Part shown: positions 5,765 to 37,791 of the stretch, one piece after another
Position numbering within the stretch: the first letter of the stretch is position 1
Layout: each line of letters begins with the position of its first letter
Assembly: GCF_000298215.1 (NCBI RefSeq)
Contig: NZ_BAHD01000005.1
Location: forward strand, 1-64,000
Source of the DNA: Kineosphaera limosa NBRC 100340
GTDB lineage: Bacteria; Actinomycetota; Actinomycetes; Actinomycetales; Dermatophilaceae
Direction: 5' to 3'
DNA: 64,000 bases
Made by a program: the position numbers and the translations under genes
Notes under the pieces: generated by a model
What the model saw: only the letters and a program-made list of their open reading frames with translations
Told to the model about the DNA's origin: nothing
Databases searched by the model: none

Positions 5765-6763
5765 TCAGACGGTCCGCGGCAAGTCCGTAGGTGATGCGAG
5801 GCCGGCCGGCAGGCGGTGGCTGACGGTGCCGATGCCACTGCCGTCGCCGATCTGCACGGGCACGCCCTGCTCCTGCGCGATGCGGTCGAGAATCACGTTG
5901 ATGCACGCGTTCGTCAAGCGCTGGTCGGGCAGGTTGTAGCAGCGGGCGAACTCGTCGAGGTGTGGGCGCACGGCCTGGAACGCGATGAGGTAGCCGATGC
6001 CCAGGATCGTGCCGAGCACGACAGCCAGCCCGCCGCAGACGAGCCCGCCGACCGCGATCCCGCGCCCCGCCCGCTTGCCCCGGTTGCGCGCCGAGGCCGA
6101 CATCCGCTTCATCGCGATGATCGCCAACACGCAGGCGAACAGGCCGACGACCACGGGGATCAACGGCATCCAGAACGCGAACAGCGCGAGCATCCCGAAA
6201 ACGAGCGCTGTGATCGCGGTGCCTTTACCCGGGGTGCGAGGCGGCTCGGCGTAGGGGTCGTGACCGTAGCCGTAACCCGCCGGCGCGGGCGGCGGATACC
6301 CCTGCCCGTACCCGCCCTGACCGTACCCGCCCTGGCCGTACCCGCCCTGGCCGTAGGCCTCCTGTTGGTAGCCGCCCTGCCCCGGCGGATAGCCGTGACC
6401 TTGCTGGCCCTGACTTTGTTGCCCGTAGCCCTGCTGCTCGTAGCCCTGTTGCCCGTAGCCGGCCTGGCCGTAGGACTGCTGCGGATAGGCCTGCGTCTGT
6501 TGCCCGCGGCCCGAGTCGGAGTCGGAGCCCGAACTCGGTGGCCGCTGCTGCAGCCGGCGCCCGCCGCCCGAGCCGGGGTCGTCATCGACCCGCATGGGCT
6601 GGGTGGCGTCCCAGGGCACCTGCTGCGCACGGGTGGGGTCGGAGTCGTAGTCGCGCCCGTCGTAGGAGGGGTGCGACGTCGAGGCCCCACCGATCGCCTC
6701 GGTGGCGGCGGGGTCCGACTCCGCGCCGCGGGGTTTGTGCGAATCCTGCGAGCGCTCGCTCAT
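5765..6763 (-). CDS. DUF4190-type membrane protein with Tyr/Gln/Gly-rich N-terminal half
   Basis: 332 aa. Residues about 1-175 are hydrophilic and low complexity, with many copies of YGQQGY and GGYGQ units. The C-terminal half starts at GKGTAITALVFGMLALF, has two hydrophobic helices, an ARNRGKRAGRGIAVGGLVCGG block typical of DUF4190 proteins, a further helix, and an extracytoplasmic tail with two Cys (ARCYNLPDQR and TNACINV). Function unknown; a cell-envelope role is inferred. The start ATG 6763 has GGAGGG about 11 nt upstream. The gene interrupts the trp cluster on the opposite strand. Confidence 0.75.
   Translation of the reverse strand: MSERSQDSHKPRGAESDPAATEAIGGASTSHPSYDGRDYDSDPTRAQQVPWDATQPMRVDDDPGSGGGRRLQQRPPSSGSDSDSGRGQQTQAYPQQSYGQAGYGQQGYEQQGYGQQSQGQQGHGYPPGQGGYQQEAYGQGGYGQGGYGQGGYGQGYPPPAPAGYGYGHDPYAEPPRTPGKGTAITALVFGMLALFAFWMPLIPVVVGLFACVLAIIAMKRMSASARNRGKRAGRGIAVGGLVCGGLAVVLGTILGIGYLIAFQAVRPHLDEFARCYNLPDQRLTNACINVILDRIAQEQGVPVQIGDGSGIGTVSHRLPAGLASPTDLPRTV
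6306..6355. repeat. 15-bp tandem repeat inside the DUF4190-type gene
   Basis: Units of CCGTACCCGCCCTGG (last base A or G) at 6306-6320, 6321-6335 and 6336-6350, then a partial copy. They encode consecutive GGYGQ pentapeptides on the minus strand. The period is a multiple of three, so copy-number change keeps the frame. Confidence 0.85.
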
Positions 6764-6964
6764 GGCGCTGCGTCCCTCCGATGGCTGGGCTGCCCGGCCA
6801 TCGCCCTGCGGTCCGCGCGAAGGGCTGGCTGCTGCTCGTGTCGCCTGCCGCACGGGTCCGCCGGGCGTCGACCGCCGGTCACCGATCAGCCTAACCTCCG
6901 CGCGCGGGGTCGCTCGTGGACGAGCGGATTCGGCGCGGCGAGAGCAGCGGGCTAGCCTGAGGCG

Positions 6965-7789
6965 GTGGCAACCGTTCTCGACGACATCATCGCCGGGGTC
7001 CGAGAGGACCTGCAGGAGCGAGCGCGTCAGGTGAGCCTGGACGCCCTCAAGGAGCGCGCCGGCCGGCTGGACCCCGCCAAGGAGGTCCTTGCTGCCCTGC
7101 GCGGCCGGTCGGCCGGGGTGCGGGTCATCGCCGAGGTCAAGCGCTCGAGCCCCAGCAAGGGGGCGTTGGCGGCGATCGCCGATCCTGCGGCGCTGGCGGC
7201 CGACTACGAGGCCGGTGGTGCCACCGTCGTCTCGGTGCTCACCGAGCAGCGGCGCTTCGGCGGCAGCTTGCAGGATCTCGTCGCGGTGCGCGCCGCGGTC
7301 GACATCCCGATCCTGCGCAAGGACTTCGTCGTCACCCCCTATCAGATCTGGGAGGCCCGCGCCCACGGCGCCGACCTCGTGCTGCTCATCGTCGCGGCCC
7401 TCAACCAGGACGAGCTCGTCTCCTACATCGAGCGCACGCGTTCGTTGGGTATGACGCCGCTGGTCGAGGTGCACGACGAAGCGGAGGCGGAGCGCGCCCT
7501 GGCCGCCGGCGCCGACCTCATCGGGGTCAACAACCGCAACCTCAAGACCCTGGAGGTCGACCGGTCGACGTTCGCGCGGGTGGCCCAAGTGCTGCCCGAG
7601 CACGTCGTGCGGATCGCCGAGTCGGGGGTGCGGGGGCCGCACGACGTGTTGGAGTTCGCGCGCGCCCAGGCCGACGCCGTGCTGGTGGGCGAGTGTCTGG
7701 TGACCGGGGGAGACCCGCGCAGCGCCGTCGCCGACCTCATTGCGGCCGGGGCCCACCCGTCCTCCCGCGCGCAGAGTGCAAAATACTGA
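6965..7789 (+). CDS. trpC: Indole-3-glycerol phosphate synthase
   Basis: 274 aa TIM-barrel enzyme that closes the indole ring from carboxyphenylamino-deoxyribulose phosphate. Motifs: [13 protein letters not shown] (catalytic Lys), [47 protein letters not shown] and [11 protein letters not shown]. Start GTG 6965 follows a -10-like TAGCCT by only a few bases, suggesting a leaderless transcript from its own promoter after the opposite-strand DUF4190-type gene. trpB follows after 53 nt. Confidence 0.95.
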
Positions 7790-7842
7790 CCCAACACCCG
7801 CAGTACCGCGGTTCGCACGATGCAGGAGGCGATGACGCCCGC

Positions 7843-9153
7843 ATGACGTCACAAGCACACCCGCCCGAGACCGGCGTCGAACCCGCAGCGGACATCGGCG
7901 CAGACCACAGCGACCTGAGTCGCAGACTCGGCGAGGGGGCCAGCCCCGGCATCGGCCGGTTCGGCGCATATGGCGGCCGATACGTGCCGGAGGCGCTGGT
8001 CGCGGCCCTCGAGGAGCTCGACGAGGCCCGCCTCAAGGCGGAGGTCGACCCCGACTTCATCGCCGAGCTGACCCGCCTGCAACTGACCTACACCGGGCGC
8101 CCGAGCCTGCTGACCGAGGTGCCGCGGTTCGCCGAACACGCCGGCGGCGCCCGCATCTTCCTCAAACGCGAAGACCTCAACCACACCGGCTCGCACAAGA
8201 TCAACAACGTGCTCGGCCAGGCGCTGCTCACCAAGCGGATGGGCAAGACTAGGGTCATCGCCGAGACCGGCGCCGGTCAGCACGGCGTCGCGACCGCCAC
8301 CGCCGCGGCCCTCATGGGCCTGGAGTGCGTGGTCTACATGGGGGAGCGCGACACCCAGCGCCAGGCCCTCAACGTCGCGCGGATGCGGCTGTTGGGCGCG
8401 CAGGTCGTACCGGTCACGCACGGCTCGCGCACCCTCAAGGACGCGGTCAACGAGGCGATGCGCGACTGGGTCACCAACGTCTCCACCACGCACTACGTGC
8501 TGGGCACGGTGACCGGGCCGCATCCCTTCCCCGAGATGGTCCGCAACTTCCACAAGATCATCGGCGAGGAGGCCCGCGCGCAGCTGCTCGCCGAGGTCGG
8601 CCGGCTGCCCGACGCGGTGTGCGCGTGCGTCGGCGGCGGCTCCAACGCCATGGGCATCTTCCACGCGTTCGTGCCGGACGAGAGCGTGCGCCTGTTCGGT
8701 TTCGAGGCCGGCGGCGAGGGCATCGACTCGGGTAAGCACGCCGCGCGTTTCTCAACCGGCACCCCCGGCGTGCTGCACGGCGCGGCGACCTACCTGCTGC
8801 AGGACGACGACGGCCAGACGATCGAGTCGCACTCGATCTCCGCGGGGCTGGACTACCCCAGCGTGGGGCCCGAGCACGCCTACCTGCACGACACCGGCCG
8901 CGCGCAGTACCGGCCGATCGTCGATGACGAGGCGATGGAGGCCTTCGGGCTGCTGTGTCGCTCCGAGGGCATCATCCCGGCCATCGAGTCCAGCCACGCC
9001 CTAGCGGGCGCGCTGCAGGTCGGCCGCGAGCTGGGCGAGGGCGCAGTCGTTCTCGTCAGCCTCTCGGGGCGCGGCGACAAGGATGTCGACACGGCCGCCC
9101 GCTGGTTCGGGCTGCTGGACGAGGCGGACGCGCAGGCGGGGGACGGATCGTGA
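7843..9153 (+). CDS. trpB: Tryptophan synthase beta chain
   Basis: 436 aa PLP enzyme that condenses indole with L-serine. The PLP lysine lies in [66 protein letters not shown] and [11 protein letters not shown] are all intact. The N-terminal 30 residues are hydrophilic and variable. ATG 7843 is chosen because GGAGG lies upstream and [13 protein letters not shown] follows at the normal distance. A tiny ORF (MQEAMTPA, from 7820) overlaps the leader but has no Trp codons, so it is not an attenuator peptide. Confidence 0.95.
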
Positions 9154-10022
9154 GTGACGTGACAGTGCAGGCGACGCAGCGGTCGGCGGACCGGTCGACG
9201 CGGCTGGAGGACGTGCTGGCGGCGACACGCGGGGCGGATCGGGCGGCGCTCATCGCCTACCTGCCAGTCGGTTTTCCGACCGTCGAGCAGTCGCTGGAGG
9301 CGATGGCCGCGGTGGTCGAGGCCGGTGCGGATGTCGTCGAGATCGGCTTTCCCTACAGCGACCCGGTGATGGACGGCCCGGTCATCCAGGCCGCGGCGCA
9401 GCGGGCGCTGACCGAGGGCGTGCGGATCACCGACATCTTCGCCGCGGTGCGCACCGTCACGCAGGCCGGCGGCGCCGCGGTCGTCATGAGCTACTGGAAT
9501 CCGATCCTGCGCTACGGGGTCGACCGCTTCGCCGCCGACCTGGCGGCCGCGGGCGGCAGCGGGGTCATCACCCCCGACCTCATCCCCGACGAGGCCGGCG
9601 AATGGCTGGCGGCGGCCGACAAGCACGACCTGTGCCCGATCTTCCTCGTCGCCCCGAGCAGCACAACCGACCGCATCGCGATGACGACCGGCGCCTGCCG
9701 CGGGTTCGTCTACACGACGGCCCTCATGGGCGTCACGGGCGAGCGCACGAGCGTCGGTGACGAGGCCGCGACGCTCGTCGCGCGCGTCCGCGCGGCGACC
9801 ACGGAGTCGGACCTGCCCGTGTGCGTCGGCCTCGGGGTCTCCACCCGAGCGCAGGCCGCGCAGGTCGCCGCCTTCGCCGACGGCGTCATCGTCGGATCGG
9901 CGCTGGTGCGCGAGTTGGATCCGTCCAGGCCCTTCCCAGAGGCGCTGGCTAGCCTGCGCACGGCGGCGCAGGAACTGCGCGCCGGGGTGGGGCAAGGACG
10001 AGGCGCGGCGTCGCGCAGCTAA
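9150..10022 (+). CDS. trpA: Tryptophan synthase alpha chain
   Basis: 290 aa TIM barrel that cleaves indole-3-glycerol phosphate to indole and G3P. Catalytic Glu is in [18 protein letters not shown] and Asp in [12 protein letters not shown]. The phosphate-binding region [13 protein letters not shown] and [12 protein letters not shown] are intact. GTG 9150 overlaps the trpB stop by 4 nt, coupling the two subunits. Stop TAA at 10020-10022. Confidence 0.95.
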
Positions 10023-28983: not shown

Positions 28984-30177
28984 ATGTTGCGCATCGGTCT
29001 GACGGGTGGCATCGGTTCCGGCAAGTCAACGGCAACAGGCGCCTTGGCCGAGTTGGGCGCGCTGGTGGTCGACGCAGACGCCCTCTCGCGTGAGGTCGTG
29101 GCGCCCGGCACCGACGGTTTGTCGGCGGTCGTGGAGCGCTTCGGCGAGGGCGTGCTGGACAGCGACGGGGCGTTGAATCGCTCGGCGCTGGCCACCGCAG
29201 TCTTCGACGACGAGGATGCGCGCCGCGAGCTGGAGGCGATCATCCACCCGCGGATCGCGACCCGCACGAGCGAACTCATGGCGTCGGCCGCCCCCGACCA
29301 GATCGTCGTGCACGACGTGCCGCTGCTCGTCGAGAAGCGGATGGGCCCGAACTACCACCTCGTAGTGGTCATCGACGCGCACCAGGGCACCCGACTCGAG
29401 CGTCTCGTGCAGCAACGCGGCATGTCGGAGGCGCAGGCCCGCGCCCGCATGGATCACCAGGCCAGCGACGATCAGCGGCTCGCGGCCGCCGACGTCGTGC
29501 TCTCCAACGACGGGCCGGTGCACGAACTGCAGCAGGCGACGCGGGCGTTGTGGGAGCAGCGGCTCGTGCCCTTCGACGAGAATCTGCGCGCCGACCGGGT
29601 GGCGCGCCCCGCGCAGCAGGCGGTGCTCGCGGACTACGACCCGTCGTGGGCGTCCACCGCGCAACGGCTCACCGAGCGGATCAGCGCGGCGCTGGGGGAG
29701 CGCGCCCCCGAGATCGAACACGTGGGCTCCACGGCCGTGGCCGGCATGCCCGGCAAAGACGCGATCGACCTGCAGATCGGGGTGCGTTCGCTCTCCGACG
29801 CCGACGACCCGCAGTTCGTGCAGGCGTTGAGCCGCCTGGGCTTTCCCCGGATCGACGACTACCGGATGGACCACCCGACCGATGCGCTGCCCGACCCCTC
29901 GTTGTGGGTCAAGCGGTTCCACGGCTCGGCCGACCCGGGCCGGGTGGTGCATCTGCACGTGCGTGAGCTGGGCAGCGCTGGCTGGCAGTACGCGCTGCTC
30001 TTTCGCGACTGGCTGCGGGCCGAGCCCGACGCCGCCGTCGAGTACGTCGACGTCAAGGCCCGTCTCTCCCAGGAGCACGGCCTGAACAACGGCTACGCCG
30101 AGGCCAAGGCGCCCTGGTTCAGCTCGATCTGGCCCCGCATGCAGGCCTTCGCCCAGCGCACCGGCTGGACCGACTGA
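28984..30177 (+). CDS. coaE: Dephospho-CoA kinase fused to a UPF0157 (GrpB-like) domain
   Basis: 397 aa. Residues 1-200 are CoaE, the last step of coenzyme A synthesis: P-loop GLTGGIGSGKST, VDADALSREVV, VHDVPLLVE and the lid region QQRGMSEAQARARM. Residues about 205-395 form a UPF0157 domain, related to nucleotidyltransferases: VLADYDPSWASTAQ, IEHVGSTAVAGMPGKDAIDL, RVVHLHVRELGS and RDWLRAEPDAAVEY. The same fusion is known in mycobacteria; the role of the second domain is unsettled. The usual neighbour uvrB is displaced by the GH31/TRAP cassette. Confidence 0.95.
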   Translation: MLRIGLTGGIGSGKSTATGALAELGALVVDADALSREVVAPGTDGLSAVVERFGEGVLDSDGALNRSALATAVFDDEDARRELEAIIHPRIATRTSELMASAAPDQIVVHDVPLLVEKRMGPNYHLVVVIDAHQGTRLERLVQQRGMSEAQARARMDHQASDDQRLAAADVVLSNDGPVHELQQATRALWEQRLVPFDENLRADRVARPAQQAVLADYDPSWASTAQRLTERISAALGERAPEIEHVGSTAVAGMPGKDAIDLQIGVRSLSDADDPQFVQALSRLGFPRIDDYRMDHPTDALPDPSLWVKRFHGSADPGRVVHLHVRELGSAGWQYALLFRDWLRAEPDAAVEYVDVKARLSQEHGLNNGYAEAKAPWFSSIWPRMQAFAQRTGWTD

Positions 30178-30192: not shown

Positions 30193-32697
30193 ATGCGCAT
30201 CGCCCGCCGGCTGAAGGACGTGGCGGTGCGCGACGGCTACGCGACCCTGCGGACCGACGCCGTCGACATCCGGCTGTGGTTCCTCACCGACGACATCCTG
30301 CGCGTCCGGGCGGGGTTTGGCGGCACCTTCGCAGAAGCCTCGTACAGCCTCGTCACGACCGCCTGGCCCGACCGGCTCGACGACGTGCACGGCGCGGCGC
30401 GCATGCGCCTGACCCCCGCTCGTTTCGACCTCCAGGAGGAGGAGACGCGGGTCGTCGTGGCCGGTGCGCGCCTGCGGGTGGAAGTGGAGCGCGACCCGCT
30501 GCGCCTGATCGTGCGCGATGCCGATGGCACCGTGCTGCACGAGGACATCGCAGGTCTGGCCTACCGGCAGGACCCCAACGGCCGACGGCTGCACACCAGC
30601 CGCATCGAACCCGACGACCGCTTCTACGGTTTCGGGGAGAAGACCGGTCGGCTCGACAAGGCCCGGCAGCGGCTTGTCATGAGCCCGCGGGACTGCATGG
30701 GCTACGACCCCAAGGAGACGGATTCGCTGTACAAGCACATCCCGTTCTATGTGCGGCTCGGGCGGCGCTCCCGGGTGGCGGTCGGGTACTTCTACCACAA
30801 CACGTACGAGTGCGAATTCGACCTCGGGCGGTCCCGCAGCAACTATTGGCCGCCGTCGTCGACCTATCGCACCGACGGCGGCGACATCGACCTCTTCCTC
30901 ATCGCCGGCCCGGCCATTCGCGACGTCGTGCGGCGGTACACGCAGTTGACCGGCACGTCGGCGATGCTGCCCAAGAGCGCGCTGGGCTATCTCGGCTCAT
31001 CCATGTACTACCCGGAACTGCCGCGGGGCTGTGACCAGGCGATTCTCAACTTCGTCGAGACGAGTCGTGCGTACGAGATGCCGATCGACGGCTTTCAACT
31101 CTCCTCCGGATACACCCAGCAGGAGACGGCCGACGGACTGAAACGCTGCGTCTTCACGTGGAACGACGATCGCTTCGGCGACCCCGCGGCGTTCTTCGCG
31201 GCCATGGCCGCACGCGGGCTGACCACCTCGCCGAACGTCAAACCGGGCGTGCTGCTCGTGCACCCCGAACGCGACGCGATGGCCGCGGCGGATCTGTTCG
31301 TGCGGGACAGCGCGGGCGACGAGCCCGCCGTCGGCATGTGGTGGGGCGGCCCGGGGAACTTTGTCGACTTCACCAAACCGGCGGCGCGCGCACAGTGGGC
31401 GCGGCTGCTCACGGAGCACGTGTTGGCGAAGGGCACCGCGTCGGTGTGGAACGACAACTGCGAGTACGACAGCCTGGTCGACCTCGACGCGCGGTGCGAC
31501 TTCGACGGTGCGGGCGGCACGATCGGTCAGCTCAAGGCGGTCATGGCCAACCTCATGTGCCAGGTGACCGTCGAGGCGATCGAGCGGCACGACCCCGACG
31601 CCCGCCCGTTCGTCGTCTGCCGCTCGGGCCACGCCGGCATCCAACGCTTCGCGCAGACCTGGTCGGGCGACAACGAGACGTCGTGGGATTCGCTGGAATA
31701 CAACATCGCCACCGTTCTGGGCATGAGCCTGTCCGGCGTCGCCAATCAGGGGAGCGACATCGGTGGCTTCTACGGTCCCGCCCCGGATGCCGAACTGTTC
31801 GTCCGCTGGATCCAGCACGGCATCTTCCAGCCGCGCTTCTCGATCCACTCCGTGAACACCGACAACACGGTGACCGAGCCGTGGATGTACTCCGCGCACA
31901 CCGACACGATCCGGGAGGCCTTCGACCTGCGGTACCGACTGTTCCCGTACCTGTATTCGCTGATGGCGCGCGCGCACGAGACCGGCCTGCCCATCGTGGA
32001 GCCGCTGTGCAGCGCCTTCCAGCACGACCCGGCGTGCGACCAGGAGTCCGTCGACTTCATGCTCGGCGACGCCCTGCTGGTCGCGAATGTCGTGCGACCC
32101 GGCGCCACCGTTCGCAGCGTCTACCTACCGGCGGACCACGAGTTCTTCGACGTCTGGACGCGGCAGTGCTATGCGGGCGGGCAACGGATCGACGTGCCGG
32201 TCGACCTGCGCAGCATCCCGCTGTTCCTGCGCGCCGGGGGCATCATGGCCCTCGCCGAGAACCCGCTGCAGAATCTGGCGACCGAGCAGGTCACCCGCCT
32301 GCGGTTGCTCTGCGCGCCGCAACGCGACGGGCGATTCACGCTGTACGAGGACGACGGCGTCAGCACGGCCTACCGGCGCGGCGAGTCCCTGACGACGCAG
32401 GTGGCCATGACGACGAGCGGACCGCGCACCGTGCTGGCGTTCGAGCACCGCGGCGCCTACCGCAGCGCCGTGCGCACCGTGCACCTCGACCTCGTCCATC
32501 CGGACAAGGCGCCGTTCTGGGTGCGCCTCGACGATGCCGAGCTGCCGCACCTGCTGGACCGTCGCGCCTTCGAGCAAGCGGAGGCGGGCTGGTACTACTC
32601 CCAGACCCTGCGATCAGTGCAGATCACCTACCCCAACCCGCACCGCGACCACACGGTCACGGTCTCCTTCGAACATTTCGACATGATCGGCATCTGA
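30193..32697 (+). CDS. Glycoside hydrolase family 31 enzyme
   Basis: 834 aa. The N-terminal beta-sandwich has FYGFGEKTGRLDK. In the catalytic barrel the nucleophile Asp is in SVWNDNCEYD (variant of WxDxNE) and the acid/base Asp in WSGDNETSWDSLEYN; DIGGFYGP and RWIQHGIFQPRFSIHS fit GH31 substrate loops. C-terminal beta domains include YEDDGVSTAYRRGE. No signal peptide, so it acts in the cytoplasm, presumably on an imported alpha-glycoside. Substrate cannot be assigned from these motifs. It begins 15 nt after coaE and leads a cassette with TRAP transporter genes, suggesting that its substrate enters through that transporter. Confidence 0.92.
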   Translation: MRIARRLKDVAVRDGYATLRTDAVDIRLWFLTDDILRVRAGFGGTFAEASYSLVTTAWPDRLDDVHGAARMRLTPARFDLQEEETRVVVAGARLRVEVERDPLRLIVRDADGTVLHEDIAGLAYRQDPNGRRLHTSRIEPDDRFYGFGEKTGRLDKARQRLVMSPRDCMGYDPKETDSLYKHIPFYVRLGRRSRVAVGYFYHNTYECEFDLGRSRSNYWPPSSTYRTDGGDIDLFLIAGPAIRDVVRRYTQLTGTSAMLPKSALGYLGSSMYYPELPRGCDQAILNFVETSRAYEMPIDGFQLSSGYTQQETADGLKRCVFTWNDDRFGDPAAFFAAMAARGLTTSPNVKPGVLLVHPERDAMAAADLFVRDSAGDEPAVGMWWGGPGNFVDFTKPAARAQWARLLTEHVLAKGTASVWNDNCEYDSLVDLDARCDFDGAGGTIGQLKAVMANLMCQVTVEAIERHDPDARPFVVCRSGHAGIQRFAQTWSGDNETSWDSLEYNIATVLGMSLSGVANQGSDIGGFYGPAPDAELFVRWIQHGIFQPRFSIHSVNTDNTVTEPWMYSAHTDTIREAFDLRYRLFPYLYSLMARAHETGLPIVEPLCSAFQHDPACDQESVDFMLGDALLVANVVRPGATVRSVYLPADHEFFDVWTRQCYAGGQRIDVPVDLRSIPLFLRAGGIMALAENPLQNLATEQVTRLRLLCAPQRDGRFTLYEDDGVSTAYRRGESLTTQVAMTTSGPRTVLAFEHRGAYRSAVRTVHLDLVHPDKAPFWVRLDDAELPHLLDRRAFEQAEAGWYYSQTLRSVQITYPNPHRDHTVTVSFEHFDMIGI

Positions 32698-32768
32698 ACG
32701 ACCGGACGACCACAGGCACGACCACGAGCACGACCTCAGCGCACGACCGGAGGAAAGGCAATGACGCC

Positions 32769-33789
32769 ATGAGAACCGGACGCACCCTCGTCGGCGCCGC
32801 CCTGGCGGCGCTCCTGCTGGCAGCCTGCGCCCCAGCACCCATCGAGGACAGCACCGCCGCCACCGCCGAACACCCGATGGTCCTGTCCCTGGCGCACAGC
32901 CTGGGGGATACCCACCCGACCTCCAAGGCGATCAAGGAGTTCGCCGAACAGGTGCAGGAGGACAGCGGCGGCCGCCTGACCGTCGAGATCTTCGGCAGCG
33001 GCGTGCTCGGTTCGGAGACGGAGGTCATCGAACAGGTGATGGCCGGGGTGCTCGACATGACGCGGGTCGCCTCGCCGGGACTGGGTTCCTACGAAGAGGG
33101 CTTCCTCACGTTCGGCCTGCCGTACGTCTTCGAGGACGAGGAGCACTTCTACGCGGCGATGGACTCGCCGCAGATGCGCGAGTTCTTCGGCTCCACGCAG
33201 AAGGCGGGCTTTGTGGGTCTGACGTACTACACCTCCGGTGCCCGCTCGTTCTACACGCGCGGCACTCCCGTAAGGCAGCCGCAGGACCTGAACGGCCTGA
33301 AGATCCGGGTGCAGGACTTCCGCAGTCAGATCGAACTCATGGAGGCCCTCGGCGGAACGCCGGTCGTCATGGCCTTCGGCGACGTGTACACGGCGTTGCA
33401 GACCGGCATCATCGACGGCGCCGAATCGAACGAGACCGCGCTGACGAATTCGAACCACGGCGAGGTGGCCAAGGAGTTCTCCTACACCCGGCACACGATG
33501 ATCCCGGACATGCTCGTGATCAGCACCGATACGTGGCAGCGGCTGACTGATGCAGATCGAGAAGTTGCTGACGAAGGCGGCGCTCGCCTCGACGCAGGCC
33601 CACAAGGAGGCCTGGCGCACCGCCATCGAGGAGTCGATAGCCGATGGCAAGGAGATGGGCGTCACCTATGTCGAGGATGTCGACCGCGACGCCTTCCGCA
33701 GCGCAACCCAGCCGCTGGTGGACCAGTACTCGCACGAGCATCCGCGGGTGGCGCAGATCCTGCGCACCATCGATTCGGCCCGGGGATAG
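32769..33789 (+). pseudogene. dctP: TRAP transporter substrate-binding lipoprotein (DctP), frameshifted
   Basis: A lipoprotein signal with lipobox LLLAAC is followed by a typical DctP fold: HPMVLSLAHSLGDTHPTSKA, GLKIRVQDFRSQIELMEALG, VVMAFGDVYTALQTGIIDGAE. The frame breaks near 33573. Before it the product reads TDADREVAD; after it, one base out of phase, KAALASTQAHKEAWRTAIEE continues to the stop at 33789. Removing one base restores a 340-codon gene with a normal C terminus. The residual product lacks the last ~70 residues. GGAGG precedes ATG 32769. Either a recent mutation or a sequencing error; the flanking transporter genes are intact. Confidence 0.85.
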
Positions 33790-33798
33790 GGGGTTGTC

Positions 33799-34326
33799 GT
33801 GGAGACGGTATTGACCCGCGTCAAGACGGTGATGACGACGGTGCTCGGCTGGTTGGCGGCCTTCCTGCTGATCGTCATGGCGTTTCTCGTGCTGTTTCAG
33901 GTGTTCACGCGGTACGTGCTCGATGATCCCGCGTCGTTCACCGAGGAATTGGTGCGCTACTTCCTCATCTGGACGGGGTTCATCGGCGGCGCGTACGCCT
34001 TCGTCACTCGGCAGCACATGGCGCTGGTCTTCGTGCGCGACCGCTTCGGCGAGGGTCCGCGGCGCTGGTTGATGGCGTTCGCTGACGGCCTGGTGCTGGT
34101 CTTCGCGCTCGTCGTCATCGTGATCGGTGGGACGCAGCTCGCTATCGGGGCGTGGGGTCACCCGTCGCCGCTGCTCGGGGTGCCCCGCGGCCTGGTCTAC
34201 GCGGTGGCGCCCGTCGCGGGCCTGTTCATCGTTCTGGCCCAGGTCATCAACGTCTGGGAGGACGTGACCGGCAAACGGATCCCGAATCCCCACGATGAGA
34301 CCGCCGACGAGGGGGCCCCGCTATGA
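33799..34326 (+). CDS. dctQ: TRAP transporter small membrane subunit (DctQ)
   Basis: 175 aa with four predicted transmembrane helices: VLGWLAAFLLIVMAFLVLFQ, YFLIWTGFIGGAYAFV, GLVLVFALVVIVIGGTQLAI and GLVYAVAPVAGLFIVLAQVI. VFTRYVLDDPASFTEELVRY after the first helix is the DctQ signature. It forms the membrane complex with DctM. Start GTG 33799, 9 nt after the dctP stop; its own stop overlaps dctM by 4 nt. Confidence 0.92.
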   Translation: METVLTRVKTVMTTVLGWLAAFLLIVMAFLVLFQVFTRYVLDDPASFTEELVRYFLIWTGFIGGAYAFVTRQHMALVFVRDRFGEGPRRWLMAFADGLVLVFALVVIVIGGTQLAIGAWGHPSPLLGVPRGLVYAVAPVAGLFIVLAQVINVWEDVTGKRIPNPHDETADEGAPL

Positions 34327-35624
34327 GCGTCCTCGTCGCGACCCTTGTGCTGTTCGGCGCGTTCCTGCTGCTGCTCTTCCTCGGGGTGCCGATCGCGATC
34401 TCCATCGCCGTCTCCGCGCTGGCCACGATGCTGCTGGTGCTTCCCTACGACCAGGCGTCCTTCGTCGTCATGCAGAAGATGAACAGCGGCATCGAGAGCT
34501 TCACGCTGCTGGCCGTCCCCCTGTTCATCCTCGCCGGCAACATCATGAACAACGGCGGCATCGCCGGGCGGCTCATTCGGTTCGCCCAGCTGCTGACCGG
34601 CCGGCTGCCCGGCTCACTGGCGCAGACCAACGTCATGGGCAACATGCTGTTCGGCGCGCTGTCGGGCTCGGCCGTGGCCGCGGCGGCCGCGATCGGCGGC
34701 ACGATGAACAAGGCCCAGGAGGAGCAGAAATACCCCAAGGGTTTCGCCGCGGCCGTCAACATCGCCTCCGCCCCGACCGGGCTGCTCATCCCGCCGACCG
34801 CGGCGTTCATCGTCTACTCGATGATCGCCGGGGGAGTGTCGATCTCGGCGCTGTTCATGGCCGGCGTTGTGCCCGGGATTCTCATGGGCCTGGTCGTCAT
34901 GGTTGTCGCGTTCGTGCATGCGCGCCGCTACGACCTGCCGCGTTCCTCCAGCCCATCGCGCGGCGAGGTCGCCAGGATCACGCTGGACGCTCTGCCGAGC
35001 CTGCTGCTCATCCTCCTCGTCGTCGGCGGCATCGTCGTCGGCGTCTTCACCGCGACGGAGGGCGCGGGTATCGCGGTGCTCTACTGCCTCGTGCTCTCGC
35101 TGCTCTACCGGGGACTGACCTGGGCGAGCCTGCAGCGGGTGCTCATCTCGTCGGTCGCCACGAGCGGGATCATCCTGTTCCTCATCGCGGCGTCCTCGGC
35201 GATGTCCTGGGTGATGGCGTACACCGGCATCCCGCAGGCGATCAGCGAGGCGCTGCTGAGCGTCTCGGGCAGCGTCATCGTCGTCTTCCTGCTGATGAAC
35301 CTCATCCTGCTGGTCATCGGCACGTTCATGGACATCACTCCGGCGATCCTCATCTTCACGCCGATCTTTCTGCCGATCGTCACCGACCTGGGGATGGACC
35401 CGGTGCACTTCGGCGTCGTGCTCATCTTCAACATGTGCATCGGCACGATGACCCCGCCCGTTGGCTCGGTGCTCTTCGTCGGTGTCTCGGTGGCGCGGAC
35501 CACGATCGAGAAGGTCGCCCCGGCCCTCGTGCCGTACCTGCTGGCGCTCGTCGTGCTGCTGCTCATCGTGACGTTCGTGCCCGTGTTGTCGTTGGGACTA
35601 CCGGGCCTGCTGGGGCTGCTCTAG
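34323..35624 (+). CDS. dctM: TRAP transporter large permease (DctM)
   Basis: 433 aa, very hydrophobic, about 12 membrane segments. TRAP signature regions: [73 protein letters not shown] and [19 protein letters not shown]. DctM is the Na+-driven permease. TRAP systems classically take up carboxylates such as dicarboxylates, sialate and uronates; pairing with a GH31 enzyme suggests a carboxylated glycoside, which is inference. Confidence 0.94.
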
Positions 35625-35694
35625 GAGGTCGGGCACCGGGCCGCCGGGCGGTCGTGGAACAAGGTTGTCGGTGCTCGGCGTTAGCGTCGTCGTT

Positions 35695-37791
<2,097 letters not shown>

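Follow-up and report, generated by a model that had tools for sequence, protein, structure and literature searches.

The window analysed here is a stretch of 64,000 nucleotides from Kineosphaera limosa NBRC 100340 (contig NZ_BAHD01000005.1, positions 1 to 64,000 of the forward strand), taken from a draft genome of 4.85 Mb in 166 contigs that is rated 98.78% complete. Between coaE and uvrB it carries a cassette of four genes on the same strand (+), in which a glycoside hydrolase family 31 (GH31) α-glycosidase is followed by a tripartite ATP-independent periplasmic (TRAP) transporter. The GH31 gene (30193..32697, 834 aa) belongs to a clade without a characterised member and was identified by Pfam, NCBIfam, a clade alignment and an alignment with YihQ and YicI of Escherichia coli. 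It is followed by dctP, for a substrate-binding protein of the hexuronate-binder group (32769..33789, with a frame change at about 33553-33577), dctQ, for the small membrane subunit (33799..34326; PF04290, 109 bits), and dctM, for the large membrane subunit (34323..35624; PF06808, 400 bits, and TIGR00786 over its cut-off). All four products are above Pfam cut-offs, and the TRAP-T subunit set of DctP, DctQ and DctM is complete by Pfam, with DctP split over two frames. Upstream, coaE (28984..30177, +) is fused to a GrpB domain (PF01121, PF04229; NF002879 over its cut-off) and ends 15 bp before GH31. The coaE-GrpB fusion, together with the closest relatives, fits a place in the actinobacteria. 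Downstream, 40 bp separate dctM from the longest uvrB open reading frame (ORF; 35665..37791, +; NF003673 and TIGR00631 over their cut-offs), for which an alternative ATG at 35695 agrees with the start of the protein in the congener G002. ORFs, Pfam and NCBIfam thus confirmed the arrangement described in an earlier, sequence-only reading of this stretch, namely a GH31 glycosidase and dctP-dctQ-dctM between coaE and uvrB. A scan for promoters and terminators gave no signal exceeding that of shuffled sequences.

Relatives of the GH31 gene were collected in a scan that gave 278 pattern matches, of which 269 were relatives, and the best 80 of the 269 were kept as loci (GH31 identity, 57-68%). TRAP genes were surveyed at these loci with the window's TRAP proteins as phmmer queries (E 1e-10). 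The survey of GH31 genes next to TRAP genes, which had been proposed along with the sequence-only reading, found dctP, dctQ and dctM together at 45 of the 80 loci, all on the strand of GH31 and no further than about 3.3 kb from it on the 3′ side, and at least one TRAP gene near GH31 at 47. The host groups are actinobacteria, Lachnospiraceae and other Firmicutes, and Spirochaetales. Over 44 cassettes, including that of the window, pairwise identities of GH31 correlated with those of DctP (0.83) and DctM (0.86); this fits joint inheritance, although common descent would yield the same. Judged by sequence comparison, the GH31-TRAP pairing is a recurrent unit and more than chance. At three loci (L067, L070 and L073) a single TRAP set is flanked on each side by one gene of the GH31 clade.

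Longest-ORF gene calls proved partly wrong where the GC content is high, and the window and ten actinobacterial loci were given calls guided by GC at third codon positions (GC3); the counts of AraC, esterase and symporter genes are based on longest-ORF calls. An AraC-type regulator, named from one representative, was near GH31 at 34 of 47 TRAP loci and 17 of 33 TRAP-less loci.

At seven of the ten actinobacterial loci, the GH31-TRAP genes lie beside genes for glucuronate isomerase (UxaC) and a fructuronate-reductase-like (UxuB-like) protein, and at six of these seven a mannonate dehydratase gene is directly upstream. The Isoptericola locus L060 has the order UxaC-UxuA-GH31-DctPQM, with the UxuB-like gene and a LacI regulator divergent. 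Five others, from Saccharopolyspora, Prauserella and Saccharomonospora (L061, L069, L077, L079 and L080), have ManD-GH31-DctPQM with UxaC and the UxuB-like gene on the opposite strand, and a cluster in genome G413 is again of the ManD type, ManD-GH31-DctPQM with UxaC and a UxuB-like gene. In the Mobilicoccus locus L003, UxaC and a UxuB-like gene are inside the locus, while L022, L046 and L059 contain none of UxaC, UxuA, ManD and UxuB. NCBIfam models were over their cut-offs for UxaC in L003, L060 and L079, for UxuA in L060, and for ManD in L061, L079 and L080; the remaining copies were identified by tblastn with the NCBIfam-named ones, and the UxuB-like protein is below the cut-off of its own model (309 vs 603 bits). 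At least one of the four enzymes was found at 10 of the 80 loci; in Firmicutes the finds were limited to UxuA, in L020 and L044, plus one weak match, in L038.

On the scale of genomes, UxaC was present in 49 of the 50 clade genomes searched, comprising 45 of 46 with TRAP genes and 4 of 4 without; the sole miss is the genome of L029, and UxaC in that of L075 rests on fragments. Among actinobacteria, UxaC occurred in 9 of 9 clade genomes as against 53 of 394 in the class (Fisher p 2.5e-8, uncorrected for kinship). Among the others it occurred in 40 of 41 clade genomes, compared with 99 of 200 from the family to which the L012 genome belongs (Fisher p 3.5e-10, likewise uncorrected), a background that covers a single one of the families involved and contains some clade genomes. 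At pathway level, the guess that a uronate is involved has good support.

The GH31 protein has four domains over Pfam cut-offs (PF01055, PF13802, PF21365 and PF17137), and its predicted model (mean pLDDT 87.6, pTM 0.91) has the GH31 fold over the whole length. Its N-terminus is not hydrophobic, with a top 12-residue hydropathy mean of 0.59 in the first 40 residues as against 2.65 for DctP, which fits the cytoplasmic location given in the sequence-only reading. D421 (in WNDNCEYD) and D493 (in WSGDN) align with D405 and D472 of YihQ and are present in 81 of 81 clade members; by their positions in the family we take them to be the nucleophile and the acid/base, respectively. Part of the conservation of WNDNCEYD comes from selection, as this motif was one of those searched for.

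Two further positions distinguish the clade from a comparison set of 17 other GH31 proteins (YihQ, YicI, the second GH31 of the same genome, and 14 from relatives). S304 replaces an Asp that is kept in 16 of the 17, with YihQ aligning in a gap-shifted column, and S550 replaces the Arg of an RxH motif kept in 17 of 17. All 81 clade members have both serines, neither of which falls within a search pattern, and the two presumably mark where the minus-1 sugar is read in GH31 structures. In α-glucosidases the Asp makes contacts with O4 and O6 of this sugar, so its loss from the clade sequences is compatible with a glycone that is modified at C6, for instance a uronic acid. These substitutions also bear on an alternative in which the substrate is an acidic disaccharide with the uronate as aglycone, GH31 removing a neutral α-sugar from glucuronate and both products being used. 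The same gene clusters and a carboxylate-binding importer would be compatible with this arrangement, but serines at both positions of the presumed minus-1 site favour an unusual glycone, and we consider it quite unlikely.

The protein scored below the cut-offs of the NCBIfam equivalogs for MalA (291 vs 800 bits) and the YicI α-xylosidase (221 vs 606 bits). With FjDex31A (6jr6), CjAgd31B (4ba0) and MalA (2g3m) it shares the four GH31 Pfam domains and the nucleophile and acid/base Asp residues, and with CjAgd31B a fold over the whole length (Z 41.4, rmsd 2.5 over 765 residues). It differs from all three in identity (20-25% in fold alignments), in having S304 and S550, and in belonging to a clade that occurs in glucuronate clusters.

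The sulfoquinovosidase YihQ, which by its annotation acts on an α-glycoside with an acidic group at C6, has a KR pair and a longer loop in the same place as the window protein, K317-R318 aligning with K300-R301 of YihQ. It differs in W304, where the window protein has F321, and the YihQ model PRK10426 gives 132 bits, far under its cut-off of 553. The KR pair was considered as proof of an acidic minus-1 site and was rejected because maltase-glucoamylase carries the same pair. A sulfoquinovosidase-like GH31, paired with a TRAP system importing a sulfonated glycoside, would be in keeping with the existence of sulfoquinovosidases within GH31, with the aligned KR pair, and with an isethionate TRAP binding protein among the DctP matches. 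The low model score, the Phe in place of W304, the occurrence of the KR pair in maltase-glucoamylase and the recurring neighbours, which are glucuronate enzymes, make this very improbable, although no search was aimed at genes of sulfosugar degradation.

For the structure comparison of DctP, the first 266 residues were used. The best solved match was 4n91 (193 bits; 39% identity over 212 positions), with named sialic-acid binders at 91 bits or less and the isethionate binder at 111. Several further top matches are presumably hexuronate binders, 4MHF being the one confirmed in the available text. Six residues of a published glucuronate site were compared (N35, Q36, R150, R170, N210 and D237); E74 of that site was dropped from the count, its alignment column being ambiguous. 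According to the available part of the source, 4N91 is Apre_1383, a D-glucuronate-specific protein, the Arg at position 170 binds the carboxylate, and homologues of STM3169 adjoin UxuAB and UxaC in other genomes (PMC7660916).

Like Apre_1383 and STM3169, the GH31-linked DctPs keep R150, the carboxylate-binding R170 and D237 (47 of 47 each). They differ from those binders at Q36, where every one of the 47 has Leu or Met, and at N210, where all 10 actinobacterial proteins and 2 of the 37 others have Ser; position 35 is variable. They also have a partner GH31 gene, of which the available part of the source makes no mention for Apre_1383 or STM3169. The window DctP has S, L, R, R, S and D at the six positions and thus departs from the full free-glucuronate set at three of them, so that it can be placed in the D-glucuronate TRAP group, a placement that does not in itself establish binding of free glucuronate. 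The Mobilicoccus locus L003 provides an internal comparison, since a second TRAP set (6763-9845, -) lies there divergent from GH31. Its DctP keeps all six compared residues and is 28% identical to the GH31-linked DctP, and a second DctP in L051 likewise retains Q36. These comparisons suggest a ligand for the GH31-linked DctPs other than just free glucuronate.

The same observations weigh on the proposal that free D-glucuronate, or another free hexuronate, is what the TRAP system takes up and that GH31 is an α-glucosidase or α-xylosidase for a neutral sugar, the two being clustered because a single plant material supplies both substrates. The closest solved relative of DctP binds free glucuronate, and the GH31 fold is closest to neutral-sugar enzymes, as this proposal would predict. 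It does not readily account for the clade-specific loss of the Asp and Arg from active-site motifs, for the absence of Q36 from all 47 GH31-linked DctPs, or for a second Mobilicoccus TRAP system, in the same locus, that has the full free-glucuronate residue set; we judge it unlikely.

The pair recurs in distant bacteria, partly in glucuronate operons, and its probable role is therefore the import and cleavage of an acidic sugar conjugate. We give an even chance to the reading that the cassette serves TRAP uptake and cytoplasmic hydrolysis of an α-linked hexuronide, with GH31 as a putative α-glucuronosidase. A more specific version is offered tentatively: the clade would be an α-glucuronosidase lineage outside the known families, with an active site for acidic sugars, and the TRAP system would take up the intact hexuronide and not a small free acid. 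The cassette would then be a horizontally spread unit for an α-linked hexuronide, in which DctP would capture the acidic compound through the family's carboxylate-binding arginine, DctQM would import it, and cytoplasmic GH31 would split it by a retaining double displacement to release glucuronate. UxaC, a fructuronate reductase, and then UxuA or ManD would degrade the glucuronate. The role thus proposed, removal of α-linked glucuronate before glucuronate catabolism, is that of the α-glucuronidases of GH67 and GH115, which are unrelated families; the window protein matches only GH31 domains in Pfam. GH4 also holds α-glucuronidases.

What the genes are, that they recur side by side, and that in relatives they belong to glucuronate-catabolic clusters is read from the sequence. 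The sequence-only reading had suggested an acidic, for example uronate-containing, glycoside as the substrate. The uronate stands on firmer ground, DctP being closest to a D-glucuronate binder and relatives of the cassette occurring in glucuronate clusters; we infer that DctP binds a glycoside and that GH31 accepts a uronate in its minus-1 site.

Several observations weigh against import and hydrolysis of an α-linked hexuronide. TRAP genes are lacking at 33 of the 80 loci, five of which have less than 1.2 kb of 3′ flank. None of UxaC, UxuA, ManD and UxuB is present in the examined flanks of 70 of the 80 loci, mostly Firmicutes. The folds nearest to the GH31 model are a dextranase, a transglucosidase and α-glucosidases, all neutral-sugar enzymes; sulfoquinovosidases stand lower in the structure matches, an order that does not decide specificity. 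The nearest DctP relative binds free glucuronate, so the case for a glycoside ligand leans on few residues and one clear internal control, and N35 and N210 are not constant within the GH31-linked set. In the K. limosa genome itself, UxaC and UxuA were not found in a search that did not extend to alternative glucuronate routes, and the ManD model, whose cut-off is 550 bits, reached 52 at best.

No report of a GH31 α-glucuronidase or of a GH31-TRAP pair was found in titles and abstract beginnings of the open-licence literature, and an earlier report may exist. If the α-hexuronide reading is true, α-glucuronide hydrolysis would be a new activity for GH31, adding an acidic substrate class, and a glycoside would join the known ligands of TRAP transporters. 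Gut Lachnospiraceae and soil actinobacteria would gain a route for α-glucuronides that standard annotation, as an α-glucosidase and a dicarboxylate transporter, would hide.

The copy in K. limosa is a separate matter, as its dctP is interrupted. DctP matches PF03480 with 223 bits over profile positions 2-226 of 286. Five intact homologues match one frame as far as 33563-33587 and the next frame from 33553-33577 to 33777-33783, and since both parts match, either the gene is broken in this genome or the draft contains an error. This DctP is the only one found in the whole genome; a second GH31, distant and of another subgroup, lies on contig C113 (G000:C113:18162-19082, L002). With dctP frame-broken and no UxaC, UxuA or ManD found, this copy looks like an orphan of uncertain use: it may be decaying, it may reflect a draft error, or its product may be used otherwise. 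For this strain, then, the suggested use of an acidic glycoside did not hold up as well as it did for the clade, and the interest of the locus rests on the GH31 clade more than on this copy.

For this genome alone, we give even odds that a transferred operon has left the cassette behind as a non-functional relic. The dctP frame change, the missing catabolic genes, the absence of the cassette from both congeners searched and the absence of any AraC or LacI gene adjoining it within the window would all be expected of a relic. On the other side, GH31, dctQ and dctM are intact and dctP is homologous on either side of the break, which could therefore be of recent date or an error of the draft.

The setting of the cassette was compared with the regions upstream of uvrB in 20 relatives. 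CoaE and UvrB were both matched in 16 of these, with 27 to 8254 bp between matched ends, and matches to GH31, DctP, DctQ or DctM at E 1e-10 were found in none of the 20 coaE-uvrB regions. The statement in the sequence-only reading that coaE and uvrB are near neighbours in actinobacteria therefore applies to part of the relatives, such as the congener G002 with a gap of about 120 bp, but not to those in which the spacing reaches 8254 bp. Another congener, G001, has two ORFs between the genes, neither resembling the cassette. Where inspected, the interval differs in content, as if it often received genes. GH31 matches at E 1e-30 were found in 20 of 58 genomes including that of K. limosa, the others having only 25-42% identity among the matches listed, and in neither of the two congeners; the clade itself occurs in 2 of 394 genomes drawn from the class, K. 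limosa and G413. Because the cassette is absent from the 20 relatives and the interval is variable in length, the cassette is, on this sequence comparison, a lineage-specific arrival at a variable spot. No match to coaE or uvrB at E 1e-20 was found in the examined flanks of the 80 related loci, which argues that the coaE-uvrB setting is incidental and not part of cassette function.

Among other neighbours of GH31, genes seen at single loci (acyltransferase, glycosyltransferase, holin, CotH, GH1, PTS and others) gave no recurring clue to the aglycone. Directly upstream of GH31 and on the same strand, L020 (8841-9830, 330 aa) and L004 (8852-9979, 376 aa) encode proteins with no Pfam or NCBIfam match at 0.001. 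Of the 33 TRAP-less loci, 6 have a symporter of the GPH family near GH31, but none of the 47 TRAP loci does; the one scanned matched a general GPH model best and the glucuronide transporter PRK09848 next, sharing with the latter its GPH membership but remaining under the curated cut-off (235 vs 528 bits). Two types of esterase, each named from one cluster representative, recur beside GH31 mainly at TRAP-less loci: PF00756 (representative L012 8907-9704, -) at 16 of 33 TRAP-less and 4 of 47 TRAP loci, and BD-FAE (representative L008 13620-14636, -) at 9 of 33 and 4 of 47. The substrate may carry an ester.

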